Part shown: positions 309-17,651 of the stretch, piece after piece
Layout: every line of letters begins with the position of its first letter
Position numbering within the stretch: position 1 is the stretch's first letter
NCBI RefSeq assembly: GCF_014696925.1
Contig: NZ_JACJQY010000029.1
Span: forward strand, 1-64,000
Origin: Phormidium tenue FACHB-1050
GTDB taxonomy: Bacteria > Cyanobacteriota > Cyanobacteriia > Pseudanabaenales > Pseudanabaenaceae
Direction of reading: 5' to 3'
DNA length: 64,000 bases
The notes under the pieces: model-generated
Told to the model about the DNA's origin: nothing
Seen by the model: the letters and a program-made list of their open reading frames with translations, nothing else
Database searches by the model: none
Program-made: the position numbers and the translations under genes

Positions 309-482
309 ATGAGTAAAGTTCAAAGTCTAAGTAGTCTTCATGAGCCAATTGAAAAAGCTCCACCTGAAGTTCAACAAATTATTCGTAATGTCTTAAAGAT
401 CGAAAAGGATCGGCTCGACAAAAATGAATTGGGGCGGATTAATGAGGATATTCTCAAAATTGTTAAGGAAGCTGTGCAATGA
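309..482 (+). CDS. Small 57-residue protein preceding the DndD-like ATPase
   Basis: The frame starts at ATG 309 and encodes 57 residues, highly charged and probably helical, without a membrane segment. Its stop codon overlaps the start of the following ATPase gene as ATGA (479-482), a translational-coupling arrangement that supports it as a real gene. I do not recognise the family. From the coupling I infer that it is a dedicated accessory subunit or antitoxin-like partner of the ATPase. Confidence 0.6.
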   Translation: MSKVQSLSSLHEPIEKAPPEVQQIIRNVLKIEKDRLDKNELGRINEDILKIVKEAVQ

Positions 483-2554: not shown

Positions 2555-3200
2555 TACAACTACGGCTCCTAAAGCAGAAATTGTCAGCGATCGCTGGGTT
2601 AAGGCAACGTGGGACGAGTTTTTAGCGCTTGCAGACGATCCTAAGTTGGAGACAGGTAGATTTTATTATGACAATCATAAAATGAGGATTGAGATGTCAC
2701 CAGTTGGACCAATACATGCCCATGAAAACTCCATTGTTTCTAATGTGGTTCGGCTCTTTGCGACGATTAGAAATATTCACATCTATGAATATACAAATTG
2801 TAGTTTTAGAAAAAAAGGCGAGAGTGAATGTCAGCCAGATATTGCCTTTTATCTAGGGGCTGACTTGAAGTTGCCACCTCGCAATAATGCACCTGTGGAT
2901 CTCAATAAGTTTGATTTGCCAACTCTGATTGTGGAAATCTCTTCAACAACGCTGCAAGATGATTTGGGATATAAGCGCTTATTGTATGAGCGTTTAGGGA
3001 TTCTAGAATATTGGGTGGTGAATGCTCAAACTTCTGAGGTGTTTGCTTTTACAATCGCTGATGGACGTAGCGGCATAGTTGAGCGCTCTCAAGTTCTCGA
3101 AGGTTTGGAAATTACCACGGTACAAGAGGCACTTAAACGCAGTCAAACTGAAGATGATGGCGCGATCGCGAGATGGCTATTGCAAACTTTTAATGGGTAG
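2547..3200 (+). CDS. Uma2-family (DUF820) PD-(D/E)XK nuclease-like protein
   Basis: The 217-residue product has the Uma2 pattern: an N-terminal strand/helix region, then QPDIAFY with the acidic residue, IVEISS with the glutamate, and the K/Y-rich tail ending in ILEYWVV. This family is hugely expanded in cyanobacteria and has the restriction-endonuclease fold; natural substrates are unknown. A strong ribosome site (GGAGG, 2536-2540) precedes ATG 2547, and the first codons overlap the end of the ATPase gene. It is followed 4 nt later by the DUF1016 gene. Confidence 0.85.
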   Translation: MVNTTTAPKAEIVSDRWVKATWDEFLALADDPKLETGRFYYDNHKMRIEMSPVGPIHAHENSIVSNVVRLFATIRNIHIYEYTNCSFRKKGESECQPDIAFYLGADLKLPPRNNAPVDLNKFDLPTLIVEISSTTLQDDLGYKRLLYERLGILEYWVVNAQTSEVFAFTIADGRSGIVERSQVLEGLEITTVQEALKRSQTEDDGAIARWLLQTFNG

Positions 3201-3204
3201 GGAT

Positions 3205-4233
3205 ATGGCAGGCGATTCTGTAAGTTTATCTGATACCTATAATGAGTTATTAATTGAGATAAAGCAACGGATTCGGACTGCTCAATATGAGGCTTTGAGA
3301 GCGGTTAATCGAGAACTAGTAATGCTTTATTGGGATCTTGGCAGGATGATTGTCACTCGTCAGCAGGGAGAAACTTGGGGAAAGTCGGTTGTGGAGCAGT
3401 TGGCTAAAGATTTGCAAGCTGAGTTTCAAGGTGTCAGTGGGTTTTCTGCGGCTAACCTTTGGCGAATGAGACTTTTTTATCAAACTTATGGTGACAATGA
3501 AAAACTCGCGCCAATGGTGCGAGAAATTGGATGGTCGCATAATTTAGTCATTATGGAGAAATGCGAAGATGATTTAGAGCGTGAGTTTTATTTGCGGATG
3601 ACGCGCAAGTTTGGCTGGACAAAAAATGTGTTGATTCACCAAATCGAGAATCAAACCTATGAAAAGACTTTGCTGAATCAGACAAATTTTGATGTGACTC
3701 TATCGGAGGATATTCGCGATCGCGCAAAGTTGGCGATTAAGGACGAATACACCTTTGATTTTCTAGAATTGGGTGATGAACATAGTGAGAGGCAGCTTGA
3801 GGCGGCGATTTTAGCTCAGGTTGAGCCATTTTTGCGAGAGATGGGTGGGATGTTTGCGTTTGTGGGTAGTCAGTATCGGTTAGAGGTGGGAGACGATGAG
3901 TATTTTATCGATTTGCTGCTGTATCATCGGCATTTGCGCTGTTTGGTAGCGGTTGAGTTGAAGATTGGGAAGTTTAAGCCTGAGTATGTGGGTAAGATGC
4001 AGTTTTATTTGGCGGTATTGGATGATAAGGTGCGGATGGTGGATGAGAGGCAATCGATAGGAATTATTCTGTGTAAGTCGAAGGAGCAGACGATTGTGGA
4101 ATATGCTTTGAAGGATGCGAGTAAGCCTATTGGGGTGGCAACTTATCGGTTATCAACGCTGCCGAAGGAGTTGAGGAATCAGTTGCCTGCGCCTGAGCAG
4201 GTGGCGATGTTGTTAAATGGTATTGAGGAGTAA
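3205..4233 (+). CDS. DUF1016 (YhcG-like) PDDEXK nuclease family protein
   Basis: I place the start at ATG 3205, five bases after the Uma2 stop, because the DUF1016 N-terminal domain begins there (YNELLIEIKQRIRTAQYEAL). The product has 342 residues. The N-terminal helical domain is followed by the C-terminal nuclease domain with the acidic residue in EYFIDLLLYH and the LVAVELKIGKF motif carrying E and K. DUF1016 proteins occur in toxin-antitoxin and restriction neighbourhoods. The 3' end overlaps a decayed nucleotidyltransferase frame on the other strand, so the insertion or recombination point of this cassette lies near 4233. Confidence 0.85.
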   Translation: MAGDSVSLSDTYNELLIEIKQRIRTAQYEALRAVNRELVMLYWDLGRMIVTRQQGETWGKSVVEQLAKDLQAEFQGVSGFSAANLWRMRLFYQTYGDNEKLAPMVREIGWSHNLVIMEKCEDDLEREFYLRMTRKFGWTKNVLIHQIENQTYEKTLLNQTNFDVTLSEDIRDRAKLAIKDEYTFDFLELGDEHSERQLEAAILAQVEPFLREMGGMFAFVGSQYRLEVGDDEYFIDLLLYHRHLRCLVAVELKIGKFKPEYVGKMQFYLAVLDDKVRMVDERQSIGIILCKSKEQTIVEYALKDASKPIGVATYRLSTLPKELRNQLPAPEQVAMLLNGIEE

Positions 4234-4716: not shown

Positions 4717-4785
4717 ATGGCTGATGCAAGGGTAAAGATCGCGAAGGATAAAGCGGAGTTTGGGGCAGATAATGAGCATTCGTAG
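4717..4785 (+). pseudogene. Vestigial duplicate of the 5' end of the Dnd-associated protein 4 gene
   Basis: A 22-codon frame from ATG 4717 to TAG 4783-4785 reads ARVKIAKDKAEF, matching the beginning of the next gene (RRVYIAEDKAELV) in both protein and DNA. It then runs into the start region of that gene in another frame. It looks like the leftover start of an earlier copy replaced by recombination. It may also serve as a short upstream reading frame. Confidence 0.5.
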
Positions 4786-5230
4786 AGTCTATATTGCTGA
4801 AGATAAAGCTGAATTGGTACGTTCTTTAAGATCTGCTGAAAATCCTACTGCGCCATTTCAGACCTATGCTGACGTGATGACTTTTGCGGCTGTCCTTGGG
4901 GCTAAGCGAGGAAAAAAGCTTCCTCTTGGTAAAACATCAAGAAAAGAACCCGATCCTATTCCTCAAGATCAGTTTGTAGCTAGAGGCTATGAACCTGTAA
5001 TTAATTTAATTGCGATCGCCCATACCAAAGATCCTAAAAGTCTTGCCCTTGACGAAGAATCTGGAAATATCCGCGTTCAAATCTTTGAAGAGTATGCCAA
5101 TGGAGGTCTTGAAGTTTTACAGAACACTTTACAAGGAAGTGTGGACTATACAGATGCAATTTTGTTGATGCTGTTAGCTGAAAAAGATCAAGAATCTTTA
5201 GAAGATTTCGATTTGAGTAGATTTCTATGA
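4772..5230 (+). CDS. DNA phosphorothioation-associated protein 4 (dnd_assoc_4-like)
   Basis: The 152-residue product starts at ATG 4772; a TTG 12 nt upstream in the same frame is less likely. It matches what I know of the family called DNA phosphorothioation-associated protein 4: a short basic start, FQTYADVMTFAAVLGAKRGKK near residues 30-50, RKEPDPIPQDQF and RGYEPVINLIAI in the middle, and an acidic tail. The biochemical role is unknown; the family is named for co-occurrence with dnd genes. Its stop overlaps the start of the HNH nuclease gene as ATGA (5227-5230), so the two are translationally coupled and probably act together. Confidence 0.75.
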   Translation: MSIRRVYIAEDKAELVRSLRSAENPTAPFQTYADVMTFAAVLGAKRGKKLPLGKTSRKEPDPIPQDQFVARGYEPVINLIAIAHTKDPKSLALDEESGNIRVQIFEEYANGGLEVLQNTLQGSVDYTDAILLMLLAEKDQESLEDFDLSRFL

Positions 5231-6198
5231 GCAAAGATTTACTGTACTATTCCAAAAAGTTTGCGAAGTTGCGTGTAGACCGTGTGCGGGGAATTGCACC
5301 TCATAAACCAATATTGCTTTTATCTGCGATCGCGCTAATCCAACAGGGAATAATCAGACAAAATCGAATATTTTTATCACCTGAATTAATCGCCACATTT
5401 CTCAAATACTGGAGTTTTTTGGGTTCAGAATCCCATCGTTCAGATATTGCTCAGCCCTTCTTTCATCTTCAAAGTGAAGGCTTTTGGCATCTAAAAGCAA
5501 AGGCTGGATTTGAACCTGTAATTAACTCTAAAGTGAAAATCAAAACCTTAAATGGGTTGAGAGATTCGGTGCAATATGCTTACTTTGATGACGAACTTTT
5601 TGAGTTAATTCAGAATCTATCATCAAGAAATAGTTTGATTGATATCCTTGTAAGTACTTGGTTTTCTGATAAATCGTCACAAATTGAACAACTTTTTCAA
5701 ATCAACTCTTTTCAAGAATTTCAAGATCGCTTACGAGATAGAGGTGGTGCTGTCTATTCAGTTGATGAAGTAGAAGATGAATCTAAATTAATTGTGCGAG
5801 ATGCAGCATTCCGTAGAATAGTTGTCTCTGCCTATGAATATCGATGTGCATTTTGTGAGTTACGGGTTCTCAATTCTCTAAATCAACATATCGTTGATGG
5901 AGCGCATATCAAGCCATTCTCACAGTTTCGAGATGATCGCTTTGATAATGGGCTTTCCCTTTGCAAAAATCATCACTGGGCTTTTGATCGTGGTTGGTTT
6001 ACGGTTGATGATGACTATCGAATAGTTGTCTCTAATGATCTTAGGGAAGAATCACCTCACGCCCAGACAATGCGAGATTTTCACGGTCAGAATATCGTTT
6101 TGCCAGCACAACAAAGCTATTTGCCAAGAATTGAAGCTTTACGATGGCATCGAGAAAATGTTTTTAATCAAGGCGATCAACTCTTTTTAGAGTACTAG
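5227..6198 (+). CDS. SBD-like HNH restriction endonuclease (phosphorothioate-dependent type)
   Basis: The 323-residue protein has two parts. The N-terminal half (about 1-130) has APHKPILLLSAI and AQPFFHLQSEGFWHL, resembling the HKPxLLL and PFxxLxxxGxW signatures of sulfur-binding domains that recognise phosphorothioate DNA in ScoMcrA-type enzymes. The C-terminal part is an HNH nuclease: C207 and C210 form a zinc half-site, HIVDGAHIKPF supplies the metal/catalytic histidines, and SLCKNHHWAFDRGWF completes the motif. It is coupled to the dnd_assoc_4 gene by a 4-nt overlap and its stop overlaps that of the convergent XRE gene. Its known relatives cut modified DNA, which is paradoxical beside dndCDE. 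The SBD assignment is by pattern only. Confidence 0.7.
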   Translation: MSKDLLYYSKKFAKLRVDRVRGIAPHKPILLLSAIALIQQGIIRQNRIFLSPELIATFLKYWSFLGSESHRSDIAQPFFHLQSEGFWHLKAKAGFEPVINSKVKIKTLNGLRDSVQYAYFDDELFELIQNLSSRNSLIDILVSTWFSDKSSQIEQLFQINSFQEFQDRLRDRGGAVYSVDEVEDESKLIVRDAAFRRIVVSAYEYRCAFCELRVLNSLNQHIVDGAHIKPFSQFRDDRFDNGLSLCKNHHWAFDRGWFTVDDDYRIVVSNDLREESPHAQTMRDFHGQNIVLPAQQSYLPRIEALRWHRENVFNQGDQLFLEY

Positions 6199-6416
6199 TC
6201 GCTCATATACAGATTCTTAAATTCTTTTGCTGCGTTGGGATTAATTTTTTCTAGCGCTGCAACAATCCGTAAAACCGTTTCAGAGTTAGGATCTCTAACT
6301 TCATTGATCCAACGATAAATATTTGAACGACCAACGCCTAAAGCATTAGCCAGATTTGTTTGGCTAATACTGTATTTTTCAAGAACTTGTCCGAGTGTTT
6401 TACCTGCTTTACCCAT
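6195..6416 (-). CDS. XRE-family HTH transcriptional regulator
   Basis: A 73-residue single-domain protein that is almost entirely a lambda-repressor-like helix-turn-helix (GQVLEKYSISQTNLANALGVGRSNIYRWINEVRDP, residues 9-43). There is no dimerisation or ligand domain. It is transcribed against the HNH gene and overlaps its stop by 4 nt. Its upstream region holds three operator-like sites that match a perfect palindrome in front of dndC. I infer that it is the autoregulated repressor of the Dnd island. Confidence 0.85.
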   Translation of the reverse strand: MGKAGKTLGQVLEKYSISQTNLANALGVGRSNIYRWINEVRDPNSETVLRIVAALEKINPNAAKEFKNLYMSD

Positions 6417-6453
6417 ACCTTTGATCGTGTCAGAGGATGTTAAGCCTGTAAAG

Positions 6454-6540
6454 AAACGTGTCCAAATGGACTACAAGAGTGTATAATTTTGTAGTCCATT
6501 TGGAGTCGTTTATTCAATTTGTAGACTAATTGGACTACGA
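6454..6540. promoter_or_regulatory. Operator cluster in the divergent XRE / small-gene promoter region
   Basis: Three copies of the motif TTGTAGTCC-N4-GGACTACAA are centred at about 6465, 6499 and 6529. In the first only the right half (GGACTACAA) is well kept, in the second only the left half, and in the third both halves with a few changes. The right half of the first and left half of the second face each other as an exact 15-bp inverted repeat around a TATAAT at 6482-6487, a candidate -10 box for the rightward gene. Binding there would block transcription. The XRE protein encoded at 6195-6416 is the obvious candidate binder; this is inferred. Confidence 0.7.
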
Positions 6541-6567
6541 AACTTTTACTATTTAATTACTAACGTC

Positions 6568-6753
6568 ATGAGCTACCAAGAAATGCTTCACCCTTGGGCG
6601 ATCGCTCGTCCTCTCCCCAATAATATTCAAAGCGTAATCGTAGGAAGATTTCGGCGCAGAGTAGACGCAGAAGAACATTTAAAGTTTTTACGGAAGCGCA
6701 TCCCTGCGGTTAAATTCTTTATTGTTTTTGATTGTCAGACAAATCTGCTGTGA
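6568..6753 (+). CDS. Small conserved cyanobacterial protein of unknown function
   Basis: 61 residues containing WAIARPLPNNIQSVIVGRFR and RRVDAEEHLKFLRK, a pattern I associate with small conserved cyanobacterial proteins. No catalytic motif or membrane segment is visible. It is divergent from the XRE gene and shares the operator region, so it is probably repressed by the same regulator. It stands 76 bp before the first AAA-ATPase gene and may lead that transcript. Confidence 0.6.
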   Translation: MSYQEMLHPWAIARPLPNNIQSVIVGRFRRRVDAEEHLKFLRKRIPAVKFFIVFDCQTNLL

Positions 6754-6829
6754 TGCAGTGAATTAGAAAGTGGCGCTAGTGCGTTGCTATATATTGAAAG
6801 AGTATATGATGCCCTGTTAAATAGCTAAC

Positions 6830-8377
6830 ATGATGAAGAAATGGTTTAATACCGCAGGTCCTTGTAAAGCTGACATTCACTATATGCTACCCGCAAGCGA
6901 TCGCCTGCCAGAGCTAGAGCAGTTAATTGCCCAAGAAAATTACTTCGTCATCCATGCCCCAAGACAAACAGGCAAAACTACAGCCATGATGTCATTAGCG
7001 CAGGAGCTAACCGCTAGTGGTCGATATACATCGGTGATGCTATCTCTTGAAGTTGGTGCAGTATTTTCTGACGACGTAGGAGCAGCCGAACTCGCTATTT
7101 TAGACGAATGGAAGCAATCAATACGGTTTCGCTTGCCCAAAGAACTTCAACCACAACAATGGTTAGAAGCAGACGCAGGCGCAAGAATTGGTACAAACTT
7201 AAGCAACTGGGCAGAACAATCATCCCGCCCGTTAGTCGTCTTTTTAGATGAAATTGACGCTTTGAGCAATGAAACATTAATTTCTGTATTAAGGCAATTA
7301 AGATCGGGTTTCCCAAATCGTCCACAAGGCTTTCCCCAGTCAGTTGCTTTAGTAGGAATGCGCGATGTCCGTGATTATAAATATGCATCAGGAGGAGGCG
7401 AGAGACTCAATACCTCAAGCCCCTTTAACATCAAAGTGCGTTCCTTCACGCTGAGTAATTTTAGCCTTGAAGAAGTCAGAAATCTCTATCAACAACATAC
7501 AGAAGCCACAGGACAAATATTTACACCAGAGGCAATAGATTTAGCATTCCATTTAACACAGGGACAGCCATGGCTCGTCAATGCGATCGCCAAGGAAATC
7601 ACCGAATATATCGCCAAAGATCCCAATACTCCAATTACACCTGAATTAGTAAACCAAGCCAAAGAGATTTTAATTCAAAGACAAGATACCCACTTAGATA
7701 GCCTAGCTGAAAGATTGCGAGAAGAACGAGTCAGAGCCATCATTCAGCCAATCCTTGCTGGGCAGGAATTACCAGATGTGCCACAGGATGACGTGCGCTA
7801 TGTTTTGGATTTAGGCTTGTGTAGTAACGAGAATGGATTGGCGATCGCTAATCCCATTTATCAAGAGGTACTGCCCAGAGTACTTGCCTATGTGACATCT
7901 GCTTCTATGGGATACATTCAACCAATTTGGCTAACTGAACAGGGTGAATTTGTACCTGAACGCTTATTAGAGTCATTTCTAGAATTTTGGCGACAGCATG
8001 GAGAGCCACTGTTTAAAAGCACCCCCTATCCAGAGATTGCGCCCCATTTAGTATTGATGGCTTTTTTGCATCGGGTGGTCAATGGTAAGGGAACTTTGGA
8101 ACGCGAATATGCGATCGGTTCGGGAAGAATGGATTTATGTTTACGCTATGGCAAGGTTACTTTGGGAATGGAGTTAAAAGTATGGCGCGACAAGAAACCA
8201 GACCCACTTAACGAAGGCTTAAAGCAATTGGATAAATATCTATCGGGATTGAATTTAGATACGGGTTGGTTAGTAATTTTTGATCGCCGTGAGGGTTTGC
8301 CACCACTCAGCGATCGCACTACTACAGAAAGAGCAATCAGTCCCGCAGGGCGAAATATTACCGTAATTCGGGGATAA
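6830..8377 (+). CDS. AAA-like ATPase with C-terminal PD-(D/E)XK nuclease domain, copy 1
   Basis: 515 residues. The N-terminal P-loop ATPase has Walker A APRQTGKTT near 43-51 and Walker B PLVVFLDEID near 135-144, followed by a helical lid (LSNFSLEEVRNLYQQH) and the LTQGQPWLVNAIAKEI segment. The C-terminal ~110 residues carry GSGRMDLCLRYGKVTLGMELKVW, with D and ExK of a PD-(D/E)XK nuclease. This architecture (AAA-like ATPase plus DUF1703-like nuclease region) is abundant in cyanobacteria; function unknown, presumed DNA-related. It is followed after 38 bp by a near-identical copy, and the pair leads directly into dndC. Confidence 0.75.
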   Translation: MMKKWFNTAGPCKADIHYMLPASDRLPELEQLIAQENYFVIHAPRQTGKTTAMMSLAQELTASGRYTSVMLSLEVGAVFSDDVGAAELAILDEWKQSIRFRLPKELQPQQWLEADAGARIGTNLSNWAEQSSRPLVVFLDEIDALSNETLISVLRQLRSGFPNRPQGFPQSVALVGMRDVRDYKYASGGGERLNTSSPFNIKVRSFTLSNFSLEEVRNLYQQHTEATGQIFTPEAIDLAFHLTQGQPWLVNAIAKEITEYIAKDPNTPITPELVNQAKEILIQRQDTHLDSLAERLREERVRAIIQPILAGQELPDVPQDDVRYVLDLGLCSNENGLAIANPIYQEVLPRVLAYVTSASMGYIQPIWLTEQGEFVPERLLESFLEFWRQHGEPLFKSTPYPEIAPHLVLMAFLHRVVNGKGTLEREYAIGSGRMDLCLRYGKVTLGMELKVWRDKKPDPLNEGLKQLDKYLSGLNLDTGWLVIFDRREGLPPLSDRTTTERAISPAGRNITVIRG

Positions 8378-8415
8378 ACAGTTCTGCTAAGTTTGAATTA
8401 TATTAAATAACTAAG

Positions 8416-9963
8416 ATGATGAAAAAATGGTTTAATACCGCAGGTCCTTGTCAAGCAGACATTCACTATATGCTGCCAGCAAGCGATCGCCTACCCGAAT
8501 TAGTTGATCTAATCGATCAGCGAAATTACTTCGTCATCCATGCCCCAAGGCAGACGGGCAAAACTACTGCCATGATGTCATTAGCGCAGGAGCTAACCGC
8601 CAGTGGCAAATATTGCGCCGTTATGGTATCAGCAGAAGTAGGGTCAGCATTTCCCGATGAACCCGAAAAAGCAGAACAAGCAATCCTATCAGCATGGCGA
8701 GATGCAGCAGATTTTTGGTTGACAGACAAATTAAAACCACCCATTCACAATCCTAATCAACCGCCACAACGCATCGGTAATTTTTTAAAAGTATGGGCAG
8801 AGACTTCACCCCGACCATTAGTTATATTTATTGACGAAATAGATTCCCTCCAAAATCAAACTTTAATAACAGTATTGCGACAGCTAAGAGATGGGTTTCC
8901 CCGTCGTCCACAGGGATTTCCGCAGTCAGTTGCTTTAGTAGGAATGCGCGATGTCCGTGATTATAAATATGCATCAGGAGGAGGCGAGAGACTCAATACC
9001 TCAAGCCCCTTTAACATCAAAGTACGTTCCTTCACACTGAGTAATTTTAGCCTTGCAGAAGTCAGAAATCTCTATCAACAACATACAGAAGCCACAGGTC
9101 AACTATTTACACCAGAAGCAATAGATTTAGCATTTTACTTAACACAGGGTCAGCCTTGGCTCGTCAATGCGATCGCCAAGGAAATCACCGAATATATCGC
9201 CAAAGATCCCAATACTCTAATTACATCTGAATTAGTATCCCAAGCCAAAGAGATTTTAATTCAAAGACAAGATACCCATTTAGATAGCCTAGCTGAAAGA
9301 TTGCGAGAAGAACGAGTCAGAGCCATCATTCAGCCCATCCTTGCTGGGCAGGAATTACCAGATGTGCCACAGGATGACGTGCGCTATGTTTTGGATTTAG
9401 GCTTGTGTAGTAACGAGAATGGATTAGCGATCGCTAATCCCATTTATCAAGAGGTACTGCCCAGAGTGCTTGCCTATGTGACATCTGCTTCTATGGGATA
9501 CATTCAACCAATTTGGCTAAACGAACAGGGTGAATTTCTACCTGAACGCTTGTTAGAGTCATTTCTAGAATTTTGGCGACAGCATGGAGAACCATTGTTT
9601 AAAAGCACCCCCTATCCAGAGATTGCACCCCATTTAGTGTTGATGGCTTTTTTGCATCGGGTGGTCAATGGTAAAGGGACATTAGAACGCGAATATGCGA
9701 TCGGTTCGGGAAGAATGGATTTATGTTTACGCTATGGCAAGGTGACTTTGGGAATGGAGTTAAAAGTATGGCGAGACAAGAAACCAGATCCACTTAATGA
9801 AGGCTTAAAACAATTAGATAAATATCTATCGGGATTGAATTTAGATACGGGTTGGCTAGTAATTTTTGATCGCCGTGAGGGTTTGCCACCACTCAGCGAT
9901 CGCACTACTACAGAAAGAGCAGTCAGTCCCGCAGGTCGAAATATTACCGTGATTCGGGGATAA
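8416..9963 (+). CDS. AAA-like ATPase with C-terminal PD-(D/E)XK nuclease domain, copy 2
   Basis: 515 residues, the tandem duplicate of 6830-8377. The first ~75 residues and everything after about residue 165 are almost identical to copy 1. The stretch between Walker A and Walker B (about 78-165) is clearly different in sequence, although length is conserved. Walker A APRQTGKTT, Walker B PLVIFIDEID and the nuclease residues D/ExK are intact. This mosaic pattern points to gene conversion over the flanks with a variable segment kept apart, perhaps the partner- or target-recognition part. The perfect operator before dndC lies 56 bp after its stop. Confidence 0.75.
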   Translation: MMKKWFNTAGPCQADIHYMLPASDRLPELVDLIDQRNYFVIHAPRQTGKTTAMMSLAQELTASGKYCAVMVSAEVGSAFPDEPEKAEQAILSAWRDAADFWLTDKLKPPIHNPNQPPQRIGNFLKVWAETSPRPLVIFIDEIDSLQNQTLITVLRQLRDGFPRRPQGFPQSVALVGMRDVRDYKYASGGGERLNTSSPFNIKVRSFTLSNFSLAEVRNLYQQHTEATGQLFTPEAIDLAFYLTQGQPWLVNAIAKEITEYIAKDPNTLITSELVSQAKEILIQRQDTHLDSLAERLREERVRAIIQPILAGQELPDVPQDDVRYVLDLGLCSNENGLAIANPIYQEVLPRVLAYVTSASMGYIQPIWLNEQGEFLPERLLESFLEFWRQHGEPLFKSTPYPEIAPHLVLMAFLHRVVNGKGTLEREYAIGSGRMDLCLRYGKVTLGMELKVWRDKKPDPLNEGLKQLDKYLSGLNLDTGWLVIFDRREGLPPLSDRTTTERAVSPAGRNITVIRG

Positions 9964-10018
9964 ATAATTTGCTAATTCTAATTTGCCAATTCACAGGCTT
10001 TAGTTTTCATCTTGCCAT

Positions 10019-10040
10019 TTGTAGTCCATTTGGACTACAA
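10019..10040. promoter_or_regulatory. dndC operator: Perfect 22-bp operator palindrome upstream of dndC
   Basis: Half-sites TTGTAGTCC and GGACTACAA are exact inverted repeats around a 4-bp ATTT centre. The site lies 44 bp before the chosen dndC start. The same half-sites occur three times in front of the XRE regulator gene (6454-6540). This is the best-preserved copy and defines the motif. Binding by the XRE protein is inferred. Confidence 0.75.
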
Positions 10041-10083
10041 CAGTAATAGGGATATCCCGAAAAACAAGGCAAATCTACCAACC

Positions 10084-11700
10084 ATGACCGAACCACAACG
10101 CACTGCACCCCAGTTAATCGAAGACATCAAAGCCCTGATAACTGAGATCCAGCAGTTGTATTGCCATGATGAAATCCCTTGGATTATTGGCTATTCAGGC
10201 GGCAAAGACTCTACCGCCACCCTCCAACTCGTTTGGCTAGCCCTCCAACAACTACCAAGCGATCGCCGCACCAAACAGATTCATGTGATCACCACCGACA
10301 CTCGCGTTGAAAACCCCATCGTCGCTGCATGGGTCAAGCGATCAATCGCCAATATGCAAGCCGCCGCCACTGAGCAAGACTTACCAATTTCTGCAAATTT
10401 ACTAGTCCCCGATGTCAAAGACACCTTCTGGGTGAATCTCATCGGCAAAGGCTACCCCGCACCCCGCAATGGCTTTAGATGGTGTACCGAACGCCTCAAA
10501 ATCAAACCATCTAACCAATTTGTCCAAAACGTTGTCCGCGCCAAAGGCGAAGTAATCATTGTCCTTGGCACACGCAAAGCCGAAAGCTCTAGGCGATCGC
10601 GATCGATGAGCGATCACGAAATGGGTAGCATAGGAGATCGCATTGGTGACAGTAATCTCACCTCCCTGCTTTATAGCGGCAGCCTACCCAACTCACTGAT
10701 CTATAGCCCCATTGCCGACTGGAGCAACAGTGAAGTATGGCTATACCTCATGCAATATCCCAACCCTTGGGGCAATAGCAATCAAGACCTCTTCACCATG
10801 TATCGCGGCGCAACCGCCGACAATGAATGTCCTCTGGTAATCGATAGCAATACACCTAGCTGTGGTGACTCCCGCTTTGGTTGTTGGGTCTGCACCCTCG
10901 TCAATAAAGACAAATCGATGGAAGCAATGATCCTCAATGATGACGAAAAAGAATGGATGCAGCCCATGCTAGATCTACGCAATGCCCTCGATAGCCCCGA
11001 TGACTGGGACAAACGTGACTTTCGCCGTATGAGTGGCAATGTACAGCTATTTACCCACAACAGCGACGGCAAACAAGAAGTCAAGCCGATCCCCGGTCCT
11101 TACACCAAAAAATGGCGCGAACATTGGCTGAGGGAATTACTCAAAGCGCAAACCGAAGCACGTAAAAATGCTCCTCCTGAAATGCAAGCGATCGAACTCA
11201 TTACTCAAGCTGAACTTAGCGAAATTAGACGAATTTGGCGTGAAGATAAACATGAATTTGATGACGCACTGCCCCATATTTATCTCGAAGTAACAGGCGA
11301 AAAATTCCAAGATATAAACAATCCCAACAATCAAAGCTTGCTAGGAGCCGATGAGTGGGAAATTCTAGCGCGACTCTGCGGCGACAATGCCATGCACCTC
11401 GAACTCACCACCAAACTGCTCAGCGTTGAAAAGCAACATTATGGCAAAATGCGCCGCGTCGGTATCTATGAAGCCCTCGAAAAATGCTTTGAAACCAGTT
11501 CGCGATCGCCAGAAGAAGCAATTCAAAATGCCCATAGGGTCAAAAATATAAAAGATGCAGCGGAGGAAGGAGATGCTAATAAAGTTCGTCAACTTGCGCT
11601 AGGGCAACCAGTCAAACCAGCCGAATCAGAGTCTCCCCAAAAAGCTAATAGTTGGGCATCTATGAAATTTGGCTCCCCAGTTGCAGAGGTACAGTCTTGA
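10084..11700 (+). CDS. dndC: DndC, DNA phosphorothioation sulfurtransferase
   Basis: DndC is the PP-loop ATP pyrophosphatase / sulfotransferase-like component that transfers sulfur during DNA backbone modification. The PP-loop SGGKDST is near residues 38-44. WCTERLKIKP and the cysteine cluster in PSCGDSRFGCWVCTLV (C-x6-C-x2-C) fit the 4Fe-4S site of the family, and the length (538) fits. I chose ATG 10084 because the frame's earlier ATG at 10012 would place the operator palindrome inside the coding region and the DndC-like sequence begins only after 10084. Its stop overlaps the TTG start of dndD. No dndA is present in the window, so the cysteine desulfurase must be encoded elsewhere. Confidence 0.93.
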   Translation: MTEPQRTAPQLIEDIKALITEIQQLYCHDEIPWIIGYSGGKDSTATLQLVWLALQQLPSDRRTKQIHVITTDTRVENPIVAAWVKRSIANMQAAATEQDLPISANLLVPDVKDTFWVNLIGKGYPAPRNGFRWCTERLKIKPSNQFVQNVVRAKGEVIIVLGTRKAESSRRSRSMSDHEMGSIGDRIGDSNLTSLLYSGSLPNSLIYSPIADWSNSEVWLYLMQYPNPWGNSNQDLFTMYRGATADNECPLVIDSNTPSCGDSRFGCWVCTLVNKDKSMEAMILNDDEKEWMQPMLDLRNALDSPDDWDKRDFRRMSGNVQLFTHNSDGKQEVKPIPGPYTKKWREHWLRELLKAQTEARKNAPPEMQAIELITQAELSEIRRIWREDKHEFDDALPHIYLEVTGEKFQDINNPNNQSLLGADEWEILARLCGDNAMHLELTTKLLSVEKQHYGKMRRVGIYEALEKCFETSSRSPEEAIQNAHRVKNIKDAAEEGDANKVRQLALGQPVKPAESESPQKANSWASMKFGSPVAEVQS

Positions 11701-13688
11701 TTTTTCGCGAATTAACCCTGCAAAATTTTGGTGCTTATCAAGGAAAGCACACGATCAATCTTTCTGTTGATGTCAGTCAAGACCATCCACCGATTGTTCT
11801 TTTAGGCGGCTTAAATGGTGGGGGTAAAACGACCTTTATTGATGCCATCCGACTGGCTCTATATGGTGCAAAAGCCCAATGCTCCACAAGAGGCAACCTA
11901 AACTATGGCGAATTTCTCTCTCAAAGCGTCAATCGTGAAGCCAAAATCGGCGAAGAAGCAGCGATCGAATTAGTCTTTGAACAAGCTAGTTTCAATAAAT
12001 CCGAACTGCGCCAAGTACCTATCTCGATTTCCCGTCGCTGGACACAGCAACCCAAAAATGGGCGCGATATTTTAGAAGTCCGTGTTGATGGCTGGAATAA
12101 CGAAACCCTGACTAATACATGGGATGAATTTATCGAAGAAATAATGCCCATCGGTATTTCGGGTCTATTTCTATTTGATGGAGAACAAGTGCGAGAACTT
12201 GCACTGCAAGACACTCCCACACAGGGCATTGTTGATGCTATTCGCACAATTCTCGGATTAGAGCTAGTCGATCGCTTAGAAATTGATTTAGAAGTCTTAT
12301 CCAGCAAAAAACGGCGTGAATCATCTGATATAGAAGCTTTTAGTAAACTTACAGAGATAGAAGCCCTAATTGCCCAACAATCCGCAGAAATTGATTTAGA
12401 AGCTGCCCATAAAAGTCAACTAGAAAACGACTTAGAACAAGCCAAAGTTAATCTTGCGGAAGCCGAACGTGAGTTTATGCGTAAAGGCGGAAAAGCGGCG
12501 GGAGATAAGCACGAATTGGAACAAAGCTATCAGAGACTTAAAGAAGAAGCCGATCAGCAAAGAAAAGCATTGCTAGATTTAGCAGAAACTTGTTTACCCC
12601 TGATGTTGATTAAATCGCCTCTGTTAGAACAAGCACTCTCCCAAAGCCAAAAAGAGCTACATCTGCAAAAAGCGAAAGCCGCCCTAGATCTGATCAAAGA
12701 ACGCGATCGCAAACTATCAGAATTTGCTGAGCAGAACCTCCCTAAGAAGTACACTCGCTTAGTTCAAGAGTTTTTAGAAACTGAACTTGCCCAACTGGAA
12801 GATGAATCACAGGATGGAGAAATATGGCTGGGTAGTGATCTCGATCTAGTAAACTCGCTCTCAAATCTTTTAGAGCAGGATTTACCCAAAACCCTTTCTT
12901 TGTCTAGTAACGCATTGCAAAAACTAGAATCTTGCGATCGCGAAAGCTCTCAAATCCAAAATGTGATTGCCTCTGCGGCAAGTCCAGAAATCTATCAACA
13001 ACTCTTACAAAAAAAAGAAGAAGCTGAAGCACTGTGTGAATCTTTAGTCAATCAACTAGATGATTCTCAACGATACTTAGCACTTTTAGAACGCAAGTTA
13101 GCTTCTAGTAAAAGAGAACTGGAAAATTATGGAACAACCATAGTCGCAAGAGGCAATCTAGAATTTTTCTTTCAGTCTGTTGTTAAAGTGCAATCAACAA
13201 TGGATTCATTCAGAAGAGAACTTACTGCCCATAAAATCGCTCAACTAGAAAACAGTGTCACTGAATGTTTTCTCCATCTTTTACACAAATCTCGTCTTGT
13301 ACATCGCATCACGATTGCGCCTGAAACCTTTCGTCTAGAGCTATACAATGCTGAAGGCAAGTCCATCCCCAAACATCGCCTTTCCGCAGGTGAAAAACAG
13401 ATGTTAGCGATCGCCTTTTTATGGGGATTAGCCCGTGTTTCAGGATGCCAATTGCCCGTCGTCATTGACACACCTCTTGGTCGTCTAGACTCATCCCATC
13501 GTTTAAATCTGCTTGATCGCTATTTCCCCAATGCCAGCCAACAAGTGATTCTGCTTTCAACTGATACCGAAATCGGCAAAGAAGAAGTAACTCGCTTACG
13601 ACAAAATCAACTAATCGCCCATGAATATATCCTAGATTACGATGAATCAATCAATCGGACTGAAGTGCGATCTGGATACTTCTGGTAA
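11697..13688 (+). CDS. dndD: DndD, DNA phosphorothioation SMC-like ATPase
   Basis: I start this gene at TTG 11697: the TTGA overlaps the dndC stop, GAGG lies 7 nt upstream (11686-11689), and the protein then begins MIFRELTLQNFGAY, the normal DndD start. The 663-residue product has Walker A GGLNGGGKTT near 36-45, LFLFDGEQVREL near 155, central coiled coils, the signature RLSAGEKQM near 560 and Walker B VVIDTPLGRLD near 585. DndD is thought to supply ATP hydrolysis for opening or nicking DNA at the modification site in the DndCDE complex. A longer upstream TTG (11652) would only add non-homologous residues. Confidence 0.92.
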   Translation: MIFRELTLQNFGAYQGKHTINLSVDVSQDHPPIVLLGGLNGGGKTTFIDAIRLALYGAKAQCSTRGNLNYGEFLSQSVNREAKIGEEAAIELVFEQASFNKSELRQVPISISRRWTQQPKNGRDILEVRVDGWNNETLTNTWDEFIEEIMPIGISGLFLFDGEQVRELALQDTPTQGIVDAIRTILGLELVDRLEIDLEVLSSKKRRESSDIEAFSKLTEIEALIAQQSAEIDLEAAHKSQLENDLEQAKVNLAEAEREFMRKGGKAAGDKHELEQSYQRLKEEADQQRKALLDLAETCLPLMLIKSPLLEQALSQSQKELHLQKAKAALDLIKERDRKLSEFAEQNLPKKYTRLVQEFLETELAQLEDESQDGEIWLGSDLDLVNSLSNLLEQDLPKTLSLSSNALQKLESCDRESSQIQNVIASAASPEIYQQLLQKKEEAEALCESLVNQLDDSQRYLALLERKLASSKRELENYGTTIVARGNLEFFFQSVVKVQSTMDSFRRELTAHKIAQLENSVTECFLHLLHKSRLVHRITIAPETFRLELYNAEGKSIPKHRLSAGEKQMLAIAFLWGLARVSGCQLPVVIDTPLGRLDSSHRLNLLDRYFPNASQQVILLSTDTEIGKEEVTRLRQNQLIAHEYILDYDESINRTEVRSGYFW

Positions 13689-13716
13689 CCAATCACCAAT
13701 CACCAATCACCAATCA
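13689..13716. repeat. Four tandem CCAATCA heptamers between dndD and dndE
   Basis: Exactly four copies of CCAATCA follow the dndD stop (13686-13688). Short tandem heptamers of this kind (STRR) are common in filamentous cyanobacteria. They separate dndE from dndD by 36 bp with no visible ribosome site. Confidence 0.9.
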
Positions 13717-13724
13717 TCTAACAT

Positions 13725-14117
13725 ATGGAACCCCCTATTGACCGCATCCGTATCTCCCAAAATGCCAGAGAGCAACTACTCAAACTCAAACGCTCTACCC
13801 ATATCGAGAATTGGAATGTTCTCTGTCGATGGGCGCTATGTAAATCTTTAGCTGAACCAACTCCTCCATCAATTATTAATATTGTCACTGATAGCAATGT
13901 GGAAATGACTTGGCAAGTCTTTGCTGGCAACTTATCAGACATTCTCATAGTTGCTCTAAAACAACGCTGTCACAACGATGGACTTGGCACAGACAAAGAA
14001 ACCCTTGCTACACAGTTTCGTTTACATCTCAATCGTGGCATTGGCTACTTATCAGGCGATCCAAATCTTAAAAAGATTGAGAACTTAATTCTTCTTGCTA
14101 GCCACGTTGAAGATTAG
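13725..14117 (+). CDS. dndE: DndE, DNA phosphorothioation protein
   Basis: 130 residues, matching DndE in length and in the sequence IDRIRISQNAREQLLKLKRSTHIENWNVLCRWALCKSL at the start and FRLHLNRGIGYLSGD near the end. DndE is the small nicked-DNA-binding subunit of the DndCDE modification complex and forms tetramers in studied bacteria. ATG 13725 is the first in-frame start at the domain boundary. It is the last gene of the dndCDE transcript, followed by a convergent truncated HNH gene. Confidence 0.9.
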   Translation: MEPPIDRIRISQNAREQLLKLKRSTHIENWNVLCRWALCKSLAEPTPPSIINIVTDSNVEMTWQVFAGNLSDILIVALKQRCHNDGLGTDKETLATQFRLHLNRGIGYLSGDPNLKKIENLILLASHVED

Positions 14118-14138
14118 CACTTTATCAGGCTGCAAAAA

Positions 14139-14168
14139 ATTGATGCTATGTCAATTGATGCTATGTCA
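14139..14168. repeat. 15-bp direct tandem duplication
   Basis: ATTGATGCTATGTCA is repeated twice head to tail in the space between the converging dndE and HNH-like genes. It is a simple local duplication in the 66-bp convergent gap. Confidence 0.85.
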
Positions 14169-14182
14169 ATAGACACCTCAAC

Positions 14183-14830
14183 CTACACAAAAGCTAGCTT
14201 TTTGGGTAGATTGTCAATACTAGAATTACACTTTTGCATATATCCTAGCCATGCAGCAAAAGCCCACTGGTAAACAACATCATAATTTGTCTTTAAATAT
14301 TCTATCCATTCAGGATGTAATGAAATTGTTTCATCTTGATCGTTAATGTAGTATAAAGGCTTTTTGTCTTGAAAGCGATCGCAGGATAATGCGGCGATAT
14401 TTTGATTTGTCTCACCACTTTTAACTCCCTTAAGTTCCATTTCAAAAAATGGTCTAATCAGACGATAAGGAGCAAATTTTTTTAACTCCTTAGTAGTACT
14501 TAACATTTTAGAAGCGATCGCCTTTCGCAACTCTTCTCCTGACAGATTTCTCCCAACTTCATCAAAAACATCAAATCTGCCAGCGATCATGTCCTTATTG
14601 CCAAACGATAACCGATGGGGATGATATGCCTGCCAAGCAATGACCAACATCTCAACCATAAGATCCTGTAGTGCAATAGGAGTATGATCAAATTTTCTTT
14701 GCTTCAGAATGTTCAACAACGCCAAGAAAAATAAATATTTGTAAGAGTTTGCTGTATGCGTAAATAGTTTTGAAAATGCTTCAATATTTAGCTGCTCGGA
14801 CTTTGGTAATGCATTAGCGCCTTGACTCAT
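14183..14830 (-). CDS. HNH-endonuclease-family protein lacking its HNH domain (truncated)
   Basis: 215 residues. ANSYKYLFFLALLNILKQ, LVEMLVIAWQAYHPHRLSFG, RLIRPFFEMELKG and the end YMQKCNSSIDNLPKKL match the N-terminal helical part of a defence-associated HNH nuclease family whose members normally continue for another 100-150 residues with the catalytic HNH. Here the frame stops right where that domain should begin, and the sequence after the stop shows no continuation in any frame. It is probably a truncated relic, or a retained regulatory/specificity fragment. It converges on dndE. Confidence 0.6.
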   Translation of the reverse strand: MSQGANALPKSEQLNIEAFSKLFTHTANSYKYLFFLALLNILKQRKFDHTPIALQDLMVEMLVIAWQAYHPHRLSFGNKDMIAGRFDVFDEVGRNLSGEELRKAIASKMLSTTKELKKFAPYRLIRPFFEMELKGVKSGETNQNIAALSCDRFQDKKPLYYINDQDETISLHPEWIEYLKTNYDVVYQWAFAAWLGYMQKCNSSIDNLPKKLAFV

Positions 14831-14908
14831 TAACGATCTCCACTCAGTTTATTGTTAAAACACGTTGCAACAAGAATACATCGCACAGGTCAACAGCGGA
14901 TCGCTCCA

Positions 14909-15481
14909 TCATTTATATCTTTCCTGAAAAGCCAACATTGCTTCTAACTGTGACTCCATCAGCAAACATTGTTCCAAATGAGCAATATCCAAATCAGTTA
15001 AACATCCACTTGCTTCAACCTGTGCATATTCTCCATCCTGAAAGCGATAAATCCTGATCTTGCCGTCTTGCCAAAACCAAACCTCAGGAATATTTCTTAA
15101 CTGGTACTTTCTTAGCTTTTTGACGCTGCCACTAGTCACCACAATCTCAATACATAAATCTGTAAGTTCAGGATTGTCACCAAATGCAAAAGATAAATCT
15201 GCTTGAAACTCTAACTTAGGCTCAATGGTTTGGGTATAAGCACCTGTACCAGTAAATCGAATCCGTTTAACTAAAAAATAGTAATTAAGCAACGCACCCA
15301 ACAAGGTAGATACCATTTCATGCAGCAAACCAATGCCCACAATTTCTACTACTCCTTCGCAATAATTTAATCTTACTCCGCCAATTTCTGCAAACGTAGA
15401 TTGCAGAGCCTTGAATTGCTCCCATGTCACAGCCTGCTTGACGAGGTATTGATCAGCCGTTTTAGTTAAAGTTAGAGTCAT
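14909..15481 (-). CDS. Uma2-family (DUF820) PD-(D/E)XK nuclease-like protein
   Basis: 190 residues. The Uma2 hallmarks are visible: an acidic residue in LEFQADLSFAFG, the glutamate in LCIEIVVTSGS, the lysine in KKLRKYQLRNIPEVWFWQDGKI, then the conserved RIYRF strand. Substrate unknown. It lies divergently beside the Dnd-associated methyltransferase gene (76 bp apart) and is a different subfamily from the Uma2 gene at 2547. Confidence 0.85.
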   Translation of the reverse strand: MTLTLTKTADQYLVKQAVTWEQFKALQSTFAEIGGVRLNYCEGVVEIVGIGLLHEMVSTLLGALLNYYFLVKRIRFTGTGAYTQTIEPKLEFQADLSFAFGDNPELTDLCIEIVVTSGSVKKLRKYQLRNIPEVWFWQDGKIRIYRFQDGEYAQVEASGCLTDLDIAHLEQCLLMESQLEAMLAFQERYK

Positions 15482-15557
15482 GGCTTAACCTTGGCAATTA
15501 CTTGGGTAATGAAGTGTTACTAGTATAATCTAAACATTCAATAAAGCTCTTGTCGCA

Positions 15558-17651
15558 ATGATCACAGAGTATAGCCACAACCAACTCATTGCCCTCTGTC
15601 AACAAAGCAAAGTTGGCAAAAAGCTACCCACTGCGCTCTATGTTCATATATCAGCGATCGCCTCTTTAGCTCCACAATTACAAGAATGCGATCGCCAAGC
15701 CAGATCACTACTTCCCAAAAAAAGCAAATTCACCATTATCAAATTCAACTACGAACAACCCAAGATCTCCTATTTGTTTTATCCAGAATTTGATACTGAC
15801 CCACATCCCGCATTGCATCAAAGTATTCAAGTTGACCTCCAAACCCAAACCACTCAACAGCGCGATTATCATCAATCTCCCAATCCGCCAATCCTGCATC
15901 GCAAAGAAACCTTTGTAACCTCTGACTATCCCCACTATCAATTATTTTCTCAACTAACCAAACAAGAAGAAGCGATCGGGCTATTTCATGAAACACGCAC
16001 CATCGGCACTCGTAAAGGATGGGAACAAAGGTTAAAGGAATACAATGTTGAACTTAAAGATCATCAAGTAATTTTGCTCCCCTCGTCCTCTAGGAGAGGG
16101 GCTGGGCGATGCACTGAGCTTGTCGAAGTGGGTGAGGGAAACATCAAAATCGATCGCCATAAAGCCGCAATTCATCGCCCAGATCTATCTAAACCCATTC
16201 GACTTGCCCTAGAAGCAGGACTATTTACAGAAAGCTCAACCTTTTTTGACTATGGCTGTGGTCATGGTGAAGATATCAAAAGAATTAGCGATCGCGGCTT
16301 TACTAGCACAGGTTGGGACCCATACTATCGACCAACAGGCGATCGTACCAGCGCCGAAATCGTCAACCTCGGCTATATCATCAACGTCATCGAATCACAG
16401 ATCGAAAGAAGAGAAGCCCTTATCAAAGCATGGGAATTAACACAAAAAGTATTGATAGTATCAGCACAAGTATTAATTGGTGATGTGGGTAAAGGACAAA
16501 TCGCTTATAGTGACGGTGTGGTGAGTAGCCGTAACACATTTCAGAAATACTACGAACAAGAAGAACTCAAACTCTATATCGATCAAGTATTAGGCGTAGA
16601 TTCAGTCCCTGTAGCTCTCGGCATTTATTTTGTGTTTCGCGATGAAATGCAAGCACAAAGCTTTAGAGCATCACGTTTTCGTTCTAGAGCCACCACACCC
16701 AGAATCCGACTTGTCTCCAAACGATTTGAAGACTATCGCGAATTACTTACCCCCCTAATGGCTTTCTTTACTGAGCGCGGCAGATTACCCGTCGGCGAAG
16801 AATTGCCTAGCTTTGAGCCGTTACTAACAGAATTTGGAACAGTCCGCCGTGCCTTTAACTTGATTGTCAGCACTACTAATCAAAATGAATGGGATGCGAT
16901 CGCCGATAAGCACCGCCAAGATATTCTGGTATTCCTAGCCCTCAGCAATTTTGATAACCCTTACAAACGACTCAAATTAAGCCAACTTTCAACGCAATAC
17001 CAAACCGATATCAAATCTCTATTTGGCTCTTATCAAGGTGCAAGTACTACTGCTGACCTGATGTTATTTAATTTAGGTCGTGAAGGTTTCATCGCTACCT
17101 GTTGTCGAAACAGCAGAATTGGCAGACTGGATGATCAAGCCCTCTATGTTCACATTTCGGCTTTAGAACATCTTGATACTATGCTCAGACTCTATGAAGG
17201 ATGTGCCAGTCGTACCATTGGTAGAATGGATGGAGCCACGCTGATCAAATTCCATCTTCATAAACCGAAAATCAGCTATCTTTTTTATCCTGACTTTGAT
17301 CGAGATCCTCACCCAAAAATGCAAGCCTCAATGCAAATTGACCTTAGAGATTTACAGGTTCGCTATCGTGACTATCACAACTCCGATAATCCCCCCGTAC
17401 TGCATTGCAAAAATACCTATGTCTTATCCGACTACCCACAGTATGAAAAATTTGCCAAATTAACCAAACAGGAAGAAAGTTGGGGATTGCTAGAAAACAT
17501 GAAAGATATTTCACATTGGCAAGGCTGGCAACAAAAATTAAAAGAACATTGTGCGGAAATACAAGGGCATCGATTAGTTTGGTTAAAACAAGCTGATTCA
17601 GAAGCAATTAAATTACTAAAAGCAAAGTGCAAGGGAAAAAAGATTAAATAA
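15558..17651 (+). CDS. DNA phosphorothioation-associated putative methyltransferase
   Basis: 697 residues. The central domain (about 190-500) contains KIDRHKAAIHRPDL and FFDYGCGHGED, a class I SAM-binding motif, followed by GWDPYYRP; together these match the family named for Dnd clusters. It is flanked by two copies of another domain: residues ~5-178 and ~512-690 both contain KVG/RIGR...ALYVHISA, IKFxxxKPKISYLFYPxFDxDPHP, RDYHxSxNPPxLH and SDYPxYxxFxxLTKQEE. The duplication is ancient and diverged. A repeat-derived insert of ~20 residues sits before the methyltransferase domain (see 16078-16138). Presumed role: methyl transfer near or on phosphorothioated DNA; untested. Confidence 0.85.
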   Translation: MITEYSHNQLIALCQQSKVGKKLPTALYVHISAIASLAPQLQECDRQARSLLPKKSKFTIIKFNYEQPKISYLFYPEFDTDPHPALHQSIQVDLQTQTTQQRDYHQSPNPPILHRKETFVTSDYPHYQLFSQLTKQEEAIGLFHETRTIGTRKGWEQRLKEYNVELKDHQVILLPSSSRRGAGRCTELVEVGEGNIKIDRHKAAIHRPDLSKPIRLALEAGLFTESSTFFDYGCGHGEDIKRISDRGFTSTGWDPYYRPTGDRTSAEIVNLGYIINVIESQIERREALIKAWELTQKVLIVSAQVLIGDVGKGQIAYSDGVVSSRNTFQKYYEQEELKLYIDQVLGVDSVPVALGIYFVFRDEMQAQSFRASRFRSRATTPRIRLVSKRFEDYRELLTPLMAFFTERGRLPVGEELPSFEPLLTEFGTVRRAFNLIVSTTNQNEWDAIADKHRQDILVFLALSNFDNPYKRLKLSQLSTQYQTDIKSLFGSYQGASTTADLMLFNLGREGFIATCCRNSRIGRLDDQALYVHISALEHLDTMLRLYEGCASRTIGRMDGATLIKFHLHKPKISYLFYPDFDRDPHPKMQASMQIDLRDLQVRYRDYHNSDNPPVLHCKNTYVLSDYPQYEKFAKLTKQEESWGLLENMKDISHWQGWQQKLKEHCAEIQGHRLVWLKQADSEAIKLLKAKCKGKKIK
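16078..16138 (+). repeat. Intergenic-type repeat inserted in frame in the methyltransferase gene
   Basis: The DNA contains the hairpin CCCCTCgtCCTCTAGGAGAGGGG and the widespread repeat core CACTGAGCTTGTCGAAGTG, both typical of intergenic repeats. It is read through in frame as a low-complexity Ser/Arg/Gly-rich insert just before GNIKIDRHKAAIHRP. The insert does not interrupt a conserved motif. Confidence 0.75.

Follow-up and report, generated by a model that had tools for sequence, protein, structure and literature searches.

A DndCDE-PbeABCD island in Phormidium tenue with an exchangeable pbeD-nuclease cassette and a putative phosphorothioate-reading second effector

Archaeal PbeABCD halts virus replication in a phosphorothioate (PT)-dependent manner and needs PbeD for defence (Xiong 2019, PMC6459918); a published reannotation makes PbeD a cognate of DndE. 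SspE and DndI are HNH nucleases that sense PT and spare the PT-marked host. Three-domain nucleases that join a PT-reading domain to an HNH domain and are encoded beside dnd genes were counted in 698 taxa, 197 of them with DndFGH (Rakesh 2024, PMC10853773). Other published accounts describe SBD-HNH nucleases and dnd genes as mutually exclusive (ScoMcrA) or as rarely occurring together (<3.6%), and decay of the nuclease or of the writer is the usual explanation offered for their coexistence. Cyanobacterial dnd systems have been said to lack a restriction arm and to have arisen as antioxidants (Jian 2021, PMC8569181). Here we describe a dnd island of the cyanobacterium Phormidium tenue FACHB-1050 in which an SBD-HNH nuclease gene stands beside the genes of the PT writer DndCDE.

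We analysed the first 64 kb (the window) of the 68-kb contig C22 (NZ_JACJQY010000029.1) in a genome of 5.6 Mb whose genus relatives are Pseudanabaena. The identity of the island at the window start as a DndCDE-PbeABCD defence system that carries a two-domain SBD-HNH gene as an accessory is well supported, because PbeC, an open reading frame (ORF) in the place of PbeB, a PbeD-like dnd_assoc_4 protein and a split pbeA are all present (Table 1). A sequence-only reading of the locus had named dndC, dndD, dndE, a methyltransferase-like gene, a dnd_assoc_4-like gene and an SBD-like HNH gene. Curated models bore out all six, the last below the cut-off of its model, NF045808. DndC, DndD, DndE and the TIGR04096 methyltransferase scored far above the cut-offs of their hidden Markov models. 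The list was incomplete, with pbeA, pbeB and pbeC overlooked.

The absence of dndB and dndFGH noted in that reading held up. Profile searches of the genome with TIGR03233 and PF14072 found no DndB (PF14072 controls positive), and DptF and DptH were negative genome-wide, DptG not being searched. We surveyed a fixed set of 319 genomes from cyanobacteria, 79 of which carry dndC. DptF (DndF) was found in 0/79 dndC-bearing genomes, this one included, with a model that gives 454 bits on E. coli DptF. DptH (DndH) was likewise found in 0/79, with matches to HerA-type ATPases only (control positive; DptG not searched). PbeA (TIGR04095) was above its cut-off in 75 of the 79 genomes and PbeD (dnd_assoc_4) in 76. 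The island is not restriction-less: PbeABCD is its restriction partner, and the first proposal, that an SBD-HNH nuclease acts in place of DndFGH, is not supported. Taken literally, the replacement proposal could hold only in G095, G117 and G247, the only genomes in the sample that have dndC and SBD-HNH without PbeA and PbeD, and every dndC-bearing genome without both Pbe proteins is among these three; even there, SBD-HNH is broken in G117 and dndC truncated in G095.

The main part of pbeA lies at the end of contig C12. It encodes 689 amino acids of the dnd_restrict_1 type with PLD/HKD and SF2 helicase domains, and scores 827 bits with the PADLOC PbeA model and 642 bits with TIGR04095. An insertion element with 27-bp inverted ends (25/27 alike) splits the gene between this part and the window part, and interrupts the assembly as well. 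The element is multicopy: the identical 101-base end of C12 was found 16 times in the genome, often at contig ends. In relatives, sequences matching the ends of C12 and C22 abut within pbeA. From this broken gene we infer that the insertion element connects contig C12 to contig C22. The candidate PbeB is conserved alongside PbeA and PbeC in relatives and compares with a published PbeB of 66 amino acids (Xiong 2019, PMC6459918); PADLOC gave no match to it, no PbeB profile existing. PbeC is distinguished from DndD by its 990 bits with the PADLOC PbeC model against 150 bits with the DndD model, below the DndD cut-off.

The sequence-only reading had also considered dnd_assoc_4 as a dedicated inhibitor of the nuclease; we found a PbeD-like protein with a DndE fold instead. 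The protein scored 161 bits with TIGR04062 (cut-off 74). An AlphaFold2 (AF2) model built from an alignment of 34 relatives reached a pLDDT of 86, and the eight best Foldseek rows were all DndE structures, with weak E-values. A second structural aligner returned DndE entries only (Z 8.6, 8.4 and 8.2 over 96-111 residues). By sequence profile there was no match to DndE (hhalign probability 1.8), so that the predicted fold is the sole link, and a sequence search of solved structures gave nothing significant. Its 152 amino acids equal the published length of PbeD in H. jeotgali. By predicted DndE fold, and by size and place, dnd_assoc_4 is PbeD.

The nuclease gene begins with a start-stop overlap of four bases with the end of pbeD. 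Its product matched NF045808, "phosphorothioated DNA-binding restriction endonuclease", with 151 bits over residues 22-313 and did not reach the curated cut-off of 180; by this score it is related to that family and not certified as a member. HNH_2 was its sole Pfam match, and SBD and HNH fill the 323 amino acids, with no SAD/SRA domain. The Pfam scan showed no DUF262 domain, so the DndI-type architecture of DUF262 with a DUF1524 HNH does not apply. The N-terminal half matched SBDHga1 (8h0l) by phmmer (E 1.5e-21). In Foldseek its predicted structure also had 8h0l as best match (E 1.2e-11, TM 0.91 by target), with further matches to the SBDs of SprMcrA and ScoMcrA. By sequence and predicted structure the N-terminal half is a true SBD, as the sequence-only reading had supposed.

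The SBD binds PT, and mutants of ScoMcrA show that Pro165 and Arg117 are essential, with Lys tolerated at 117, and Tyr164 is variable among homologs (Liu 2018, PMC6224610). The sulfur-pocket core is kept in the window protein, where H26, K27 and P77 correspond to ScoMcrA His116, Arg/Lys117 and Pro165; the Tyr164 position holds Gln. A degenerate pocket as the cause of coexistence is therefore ruled out for the window protein. The changed polarity proposed in the sequence-only reading, with PT guiding or restraining the nuclease, may or may not apply. Linked copies elsewhere have H, Y or N at residue 26 and K or Q at residue 27, and unlinked copies vary too. The HNH motif is intact, and its signature residues are constant across the full-length cyanobacterial relatives compared, except for A/S beside the catalytic His. 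The nuclease is 97-98% identical in the closest named Pseudanabaena records. Within the genus, the ratio of nonsynonymous to synonymous substitution rates (dN/dS) was 0.066 for SBD-HNH, 0.079 for pbeD, 0.072 for dndC and 0.095 for dndE, with a range of 0.065 to 0.095 across pbeC, pbeD, dndC, dndD and dndE. In the genus, purifying selection acts on the genes of nuclease and writer alike. Given the intact motifs and low dN/dS, neither nuclease nor writer looks decayed.

The nuclease gene belongs to an exchangeable cassette. In six further Pseudanabaena genomes SBD-HNH comes after pbeD (91-99% identical). Four more genomes (G019, G013, G009 and G008) have in the same slot a divergent allele, pbeD' (52-53% identical), with other genes in place of SBD-HNH, and the flanking genes are unchanged (PbeC 90-96% and DndC 94-95% identical). 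In G019 and G008 the partner of pbeD' is a DGQHR/DndB-type protein that exceeds the cut-off, and in G013 it is a DGQHR protein that narrowly misses it; in G009 a DGQHR motif was seen in the sequence, with no profile score. Between the window and G008, DNA homology ends at ~4760 and resumes at 6784. The 44 bases before that first break, MADARVKIAKDKAE, are the first 44 bases of pbeD', identical at 43/44 positions to G019 and G013 when aligned at ATG 4717. The gene pbeD thus starts at ATG 4772 and not at 4717, where it had first been placed; 4717-4760 is a relic of the other allele. Every sister genome examined that has SBD-HNH also has the relic upstream of pbeD. In this lineage, therefore, a pbeD'-type cassette was probably replaced by pbeD plus SBD-HNH. 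The swap of pbeD together with its downstream partner suggests that PbeD and effector make up a single module of recognition plus effector, interchangeable on a writer that stays constant.

Across the 319 genomes, intact SBD-HNH occurred in 30, from 17 genera, and 29 of these carry dndC, the remaining one having a split dndC. Among the 289 other genomes 50 carry dndC (Fisher p 7e-19, a value computed over species that are not independent). Of 20 HNH-only matches checked for hidden SBDs, a single one had an SBD: a true SBD-HNH, cut by the contig end, in a dndC-bearing genome. SBD-HNH copies are broken in G117, G067, G048 and G170. Outside the sample, a Chloroflexota plasmid has SBD-HNH beside dndBCDE; a Pseudomonas plasmid has an HNH gene next to dndBCDE too, but this was rejected, not being an SBD-HNH. 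Of the 80 closest SBD-HNH loci in named genomes, about half adjoin dnd or pbe genes, a few contigs being too short to tell, and among genomes with unlinked copies 21/39 carry a full dndC elsewhere. The linkage is operon-like: at nearly all linked loci the nuclease is on the same strand as pbeD, with a gap of -3 to 86 bases. The SBD-HNH tree requires 11 linkage changes, in which the link to dnd was made or lost, at least 8 of them on well-supported branches. On this tree the Pseudanabaena clade stands apart from a large clade in which all copies are linked, yet in both the gene lies directly after pbeD.

In G207 an SBD-only gene comes before a full SBD-HNH, and dndC is split. In a variant island at the Nodosilinea/Leptolyngbya-type loci L143, L187, L188, L159 and L190 an SBD-only protein of ~190 amino acids directly precedes the full SBD-HNH; in L143, L187 and L188 dndC seems split into a C-terminal gene of 123-127 amino acids and a divergently transcribed, PAPS-reductase-like gene of 400 amino acids. 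In the Nostocales loci L163, L173 and L207, where SBD-HNH is away from dnd, the next genes are one of 286-296 amino acids of no known family and then ORFs of ~160 amino acids, the first of which in L163 matches GmrSD_N (DUF262), the PT-sensing fold of SspE and DndI. Islands of the Nostocales type (L095-L107; e.g. L096 5587-7185) have a divergent DGQHR protein of 530 amino acids (TIGR03187 203 bits) between SBD-HNH and dndC.

Because an intact nuclease stands beside the writer in one island and is swapped together with its neighbour, the two must somehow be compatible. We tentatively favour, at somewhat less than even confidence, the reading that in this DndCDE-PbeABCD island with its pbeD-nuclease cassette SBD-HNH is a conditional, PT-reading second effector of the same cell. 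The mechanism that we infer from the observed gene content, motifs, selection, linkage and exchange would run as follows. DndCDE would mark part of the host sites with PT, and PbeABCD, by analogy with the archaeal system, would block replication of unmarked DNA. SBD-HNH would read PT through its intact sulfur pocket as a second effector. Gated by PT plus a second cue, it would not cut every PT site and would be safe with self PT. The candidate second cue is unmarked or hemi-marked DNA, or a PbeC-PbeD scanner bound at unmarked sites, with PbeD as a putative DndE-like DNA-binding subunit. A bolder version, which we consider rather unlikely, makes SBD-HNH the PT-guided nuclease of the host: it would dock on the cell's own sulfur marks and cut invader DNA nearby that is unmarked or hemi-marked, PbeD being its exchangeable recognition partner, and type IV enzymes would have become the restriction arm of PT modification in several lineages independently.

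A number of observations weigh against a conditional effector. No such gating is seen in the closest SBD-HNH enzymes that have been characterised, which cut PT-DNA, and dnd is incompatible with ScoMcrA. PbeA is 21 residues short in this strain, and the module may be impaired. Adjacent genes can exchange together through linkage alone. Since about half of the 80 closest loci are unlinked, the nuclease does not need an adjacent PbeD to work. SBD-HNH identity correlates with that of PbeC (rho 0.96) no less closely than with that of PbeD (rho 0.89), and we therefore found no signal of special PbeD-nuclease coevolution across cyanobacteria, outside the genus. The reading draws on sequence and predicted structure, with co-expression in one cell putative.

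Sequence evidence does not separate a conditional effector from either of two rivals, which we rank in the following order. The stronger, unlikely on balance, is a type IV guard for a different motif: the PT context read by SBD-HNH would differ from that of the resident DndCDE, and the nuclease would destroy DNA marked by rival Dnd systems and protect the resident one. This is listed for the few dnd-linked cases by Lutz 2020 (PMC7461809). SBDs discriminate PT contexts via loop residues, and ScoMcrA spares dnd clusters that make GpsAAC; here, residue 76, at the base-contacting Tyr164 position, and residues 26-27 vary between clades, and unlinked copies exist in dndC-bearing genomes. Yet repeated placement directly after pbeD is not predicted by a guard alone, and genomes that lack dnd should often carry a guard against foreign PT, whereas the 319-genome sample has no intact copies where dndC is absent. 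Next comes a suicide effector held off by PbeD, PbeB or repression and released on infection, when it would destroy the PT-marked chromosome and so keep the phage from spreading. Proposed for dnd-linked nucleases by Rakesh 2024 (PMC10853773), it agrees with the start-stop overlap, which allows stoichiometric expression, and with the joint swap of pbeD and partner, which fits an inhibitor-effector pair. PbeD, however, has the DndE fold and the PbeABCD place and is itself needed for defence, and copies outside dnd loci have no PbeD beside them; we regard a suicide effector as quite improbable. That the nuclease is an inactive or decoupled bystander, like the Uma2, DUF1016 and AAA-duplicate cargo that varies among strains and the SBD-HNH copies that are broken elsewhere, is the least probable account given the intact pocket core and HNH of the window protein and its close relatives, the low dN/dS and the strong association with dndC.

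Other features of the island are collected in Table 1. The two tandem AAA ATPase genes between the nuclease and dndC encode 515 amino acids each and are 88% alike; sister strains have 0 to 3 copies. A minus-strand gene of 215 amino acids (14183-14830) lies 3' of dndE and is kept in sister islands; it matched no profile library searched, and its SBD-profile score was marginal (8 bits). A near-perfect 44-base palindrome downstream of SBD-HNH (6461-6504), present in relatives too, is a terminator or small mobile repeat.

Table 1. Features of the island at the start of the window
Feature	Position	Strand	Evidence or remark
pbeA, last 21 codons	104..167	+	NGGEARLKLLDLQQRYGLMDL; rest of pbeA at end of contig C12
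pbeB candidate, small charged protein, 57 aa	309..482	+	place, size, conservation; overlaps pbeC
pbeC, CxC-clade ABC ATPase	479..2554	+	PADLOC PbeC 990 bits
cargo, Uma2 family	2547..3200	+	library match; variable among sister islands
cargo, DUF1016/YhcG PD-DExK	3205..4233	+	library match; variable among sister islands
pbeD' relic, 44 bases	4717..4760	+	43/44 identity to pbeD' start of G019, G013
dnd_assoc_4 = PbeD, 152 aa, predicted DndE fold	4772..5230	+	TIGR04062, predicted structure
SBD-HNH nuclease, 323 aa	5227..6198	+	SBD ~residues 1-145, HNH_2 residues 207-261, no SRA/SAD
exchangeable cassette pbeD + SBD-HNH	4760..6784	+	bounds where DNA homology to sister islands stops/resumes
AAA-type ATPase gene, two tandem copies, cargo	6830..8377, 8416..9963	+	absent from some relatives
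dndC sulfurtransferase	10084..11700	+	TIGR03183 686 bits; SGGKDS loop, cysteine cluster intact
dndD ABC ATPase	11694..13688	+	TIGR03185 587 bits
dndE	13725..14117	+	TIGR03184 130 bits, PF08870 144 bits
Dnd-associated putative methyltransferase	15558..17651	+	TIGR04096 848 bits

The association of Dnd with SBD-HNH, including dnd loci that lack DndFGH, is already published (2020, 2024), as is DndCDE-PbeABCD (2019). Relative to main-text passages, two things appear new: an SRA-less nuclease of two domains in the slot after pbeD, and the exchange of a pbeD-linked cassette that left a relic. Nor did we find the near-universal PbeABCD of cyanobacterial dnd systems in those passages; the counts for PbeA and PbeD in dndC-bearing cyanobacteria bear on the claim of Jian 2021 that these systems have no restriction arm. 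The genus offers a clean setting, with near-identical writers with and without the nuclease and a defined cassette exchanged, and the coexistence question is therefore testable by comparing natural strains.

Compared with IscS-DndBCDE-DndI (Tang 2024, PMC11662687) and SspABCD-SspE, the locus is alike in having an HNH nuclease, here with a predicted PT reader, that would work with the cell's own PT writer and could act without DndFGH. DndI and SspE sense PT through an NTPase domain of the DUF262/ParB type instead of an SBD, and the window protein has no such NTPase domain. The wHTH(SBD)+SAD+HNH nucleases (Rakesh 2024, PMC10853773) resemble it in the fusion of a PT-reader domain to HNH beside dnd, mostly without DndFGH. 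Here, by contrast, there is no SAD/SRA, and the pbeD slot and the cassette exchange are absent from the main-text passages of that work. With the EcoWI/ScoMcrA type IV PT-dependent endonucleases (PMC7461809; Liu 2010, PMC3009677; PMC6224610) the window protein shares the SBD fold, the pocket core and HNH, and it is two-domain like EcoWI. It differs in being found with a PT writer and in scoring below the NF045808 cut-off, and its cleavage of PT-DNA is putative. The closest likeness in gene content is to DndCDEA-PbeABCD (Xiong 2019, PMC6459918), where dndCDE and pbeA, pbeB, pbeC and pbeD share one island without DndFGH. Here the island has no dndA, an insertion element interrupts pbeA close to the 3' end, and an SBD-HNH gene follows pbeD.

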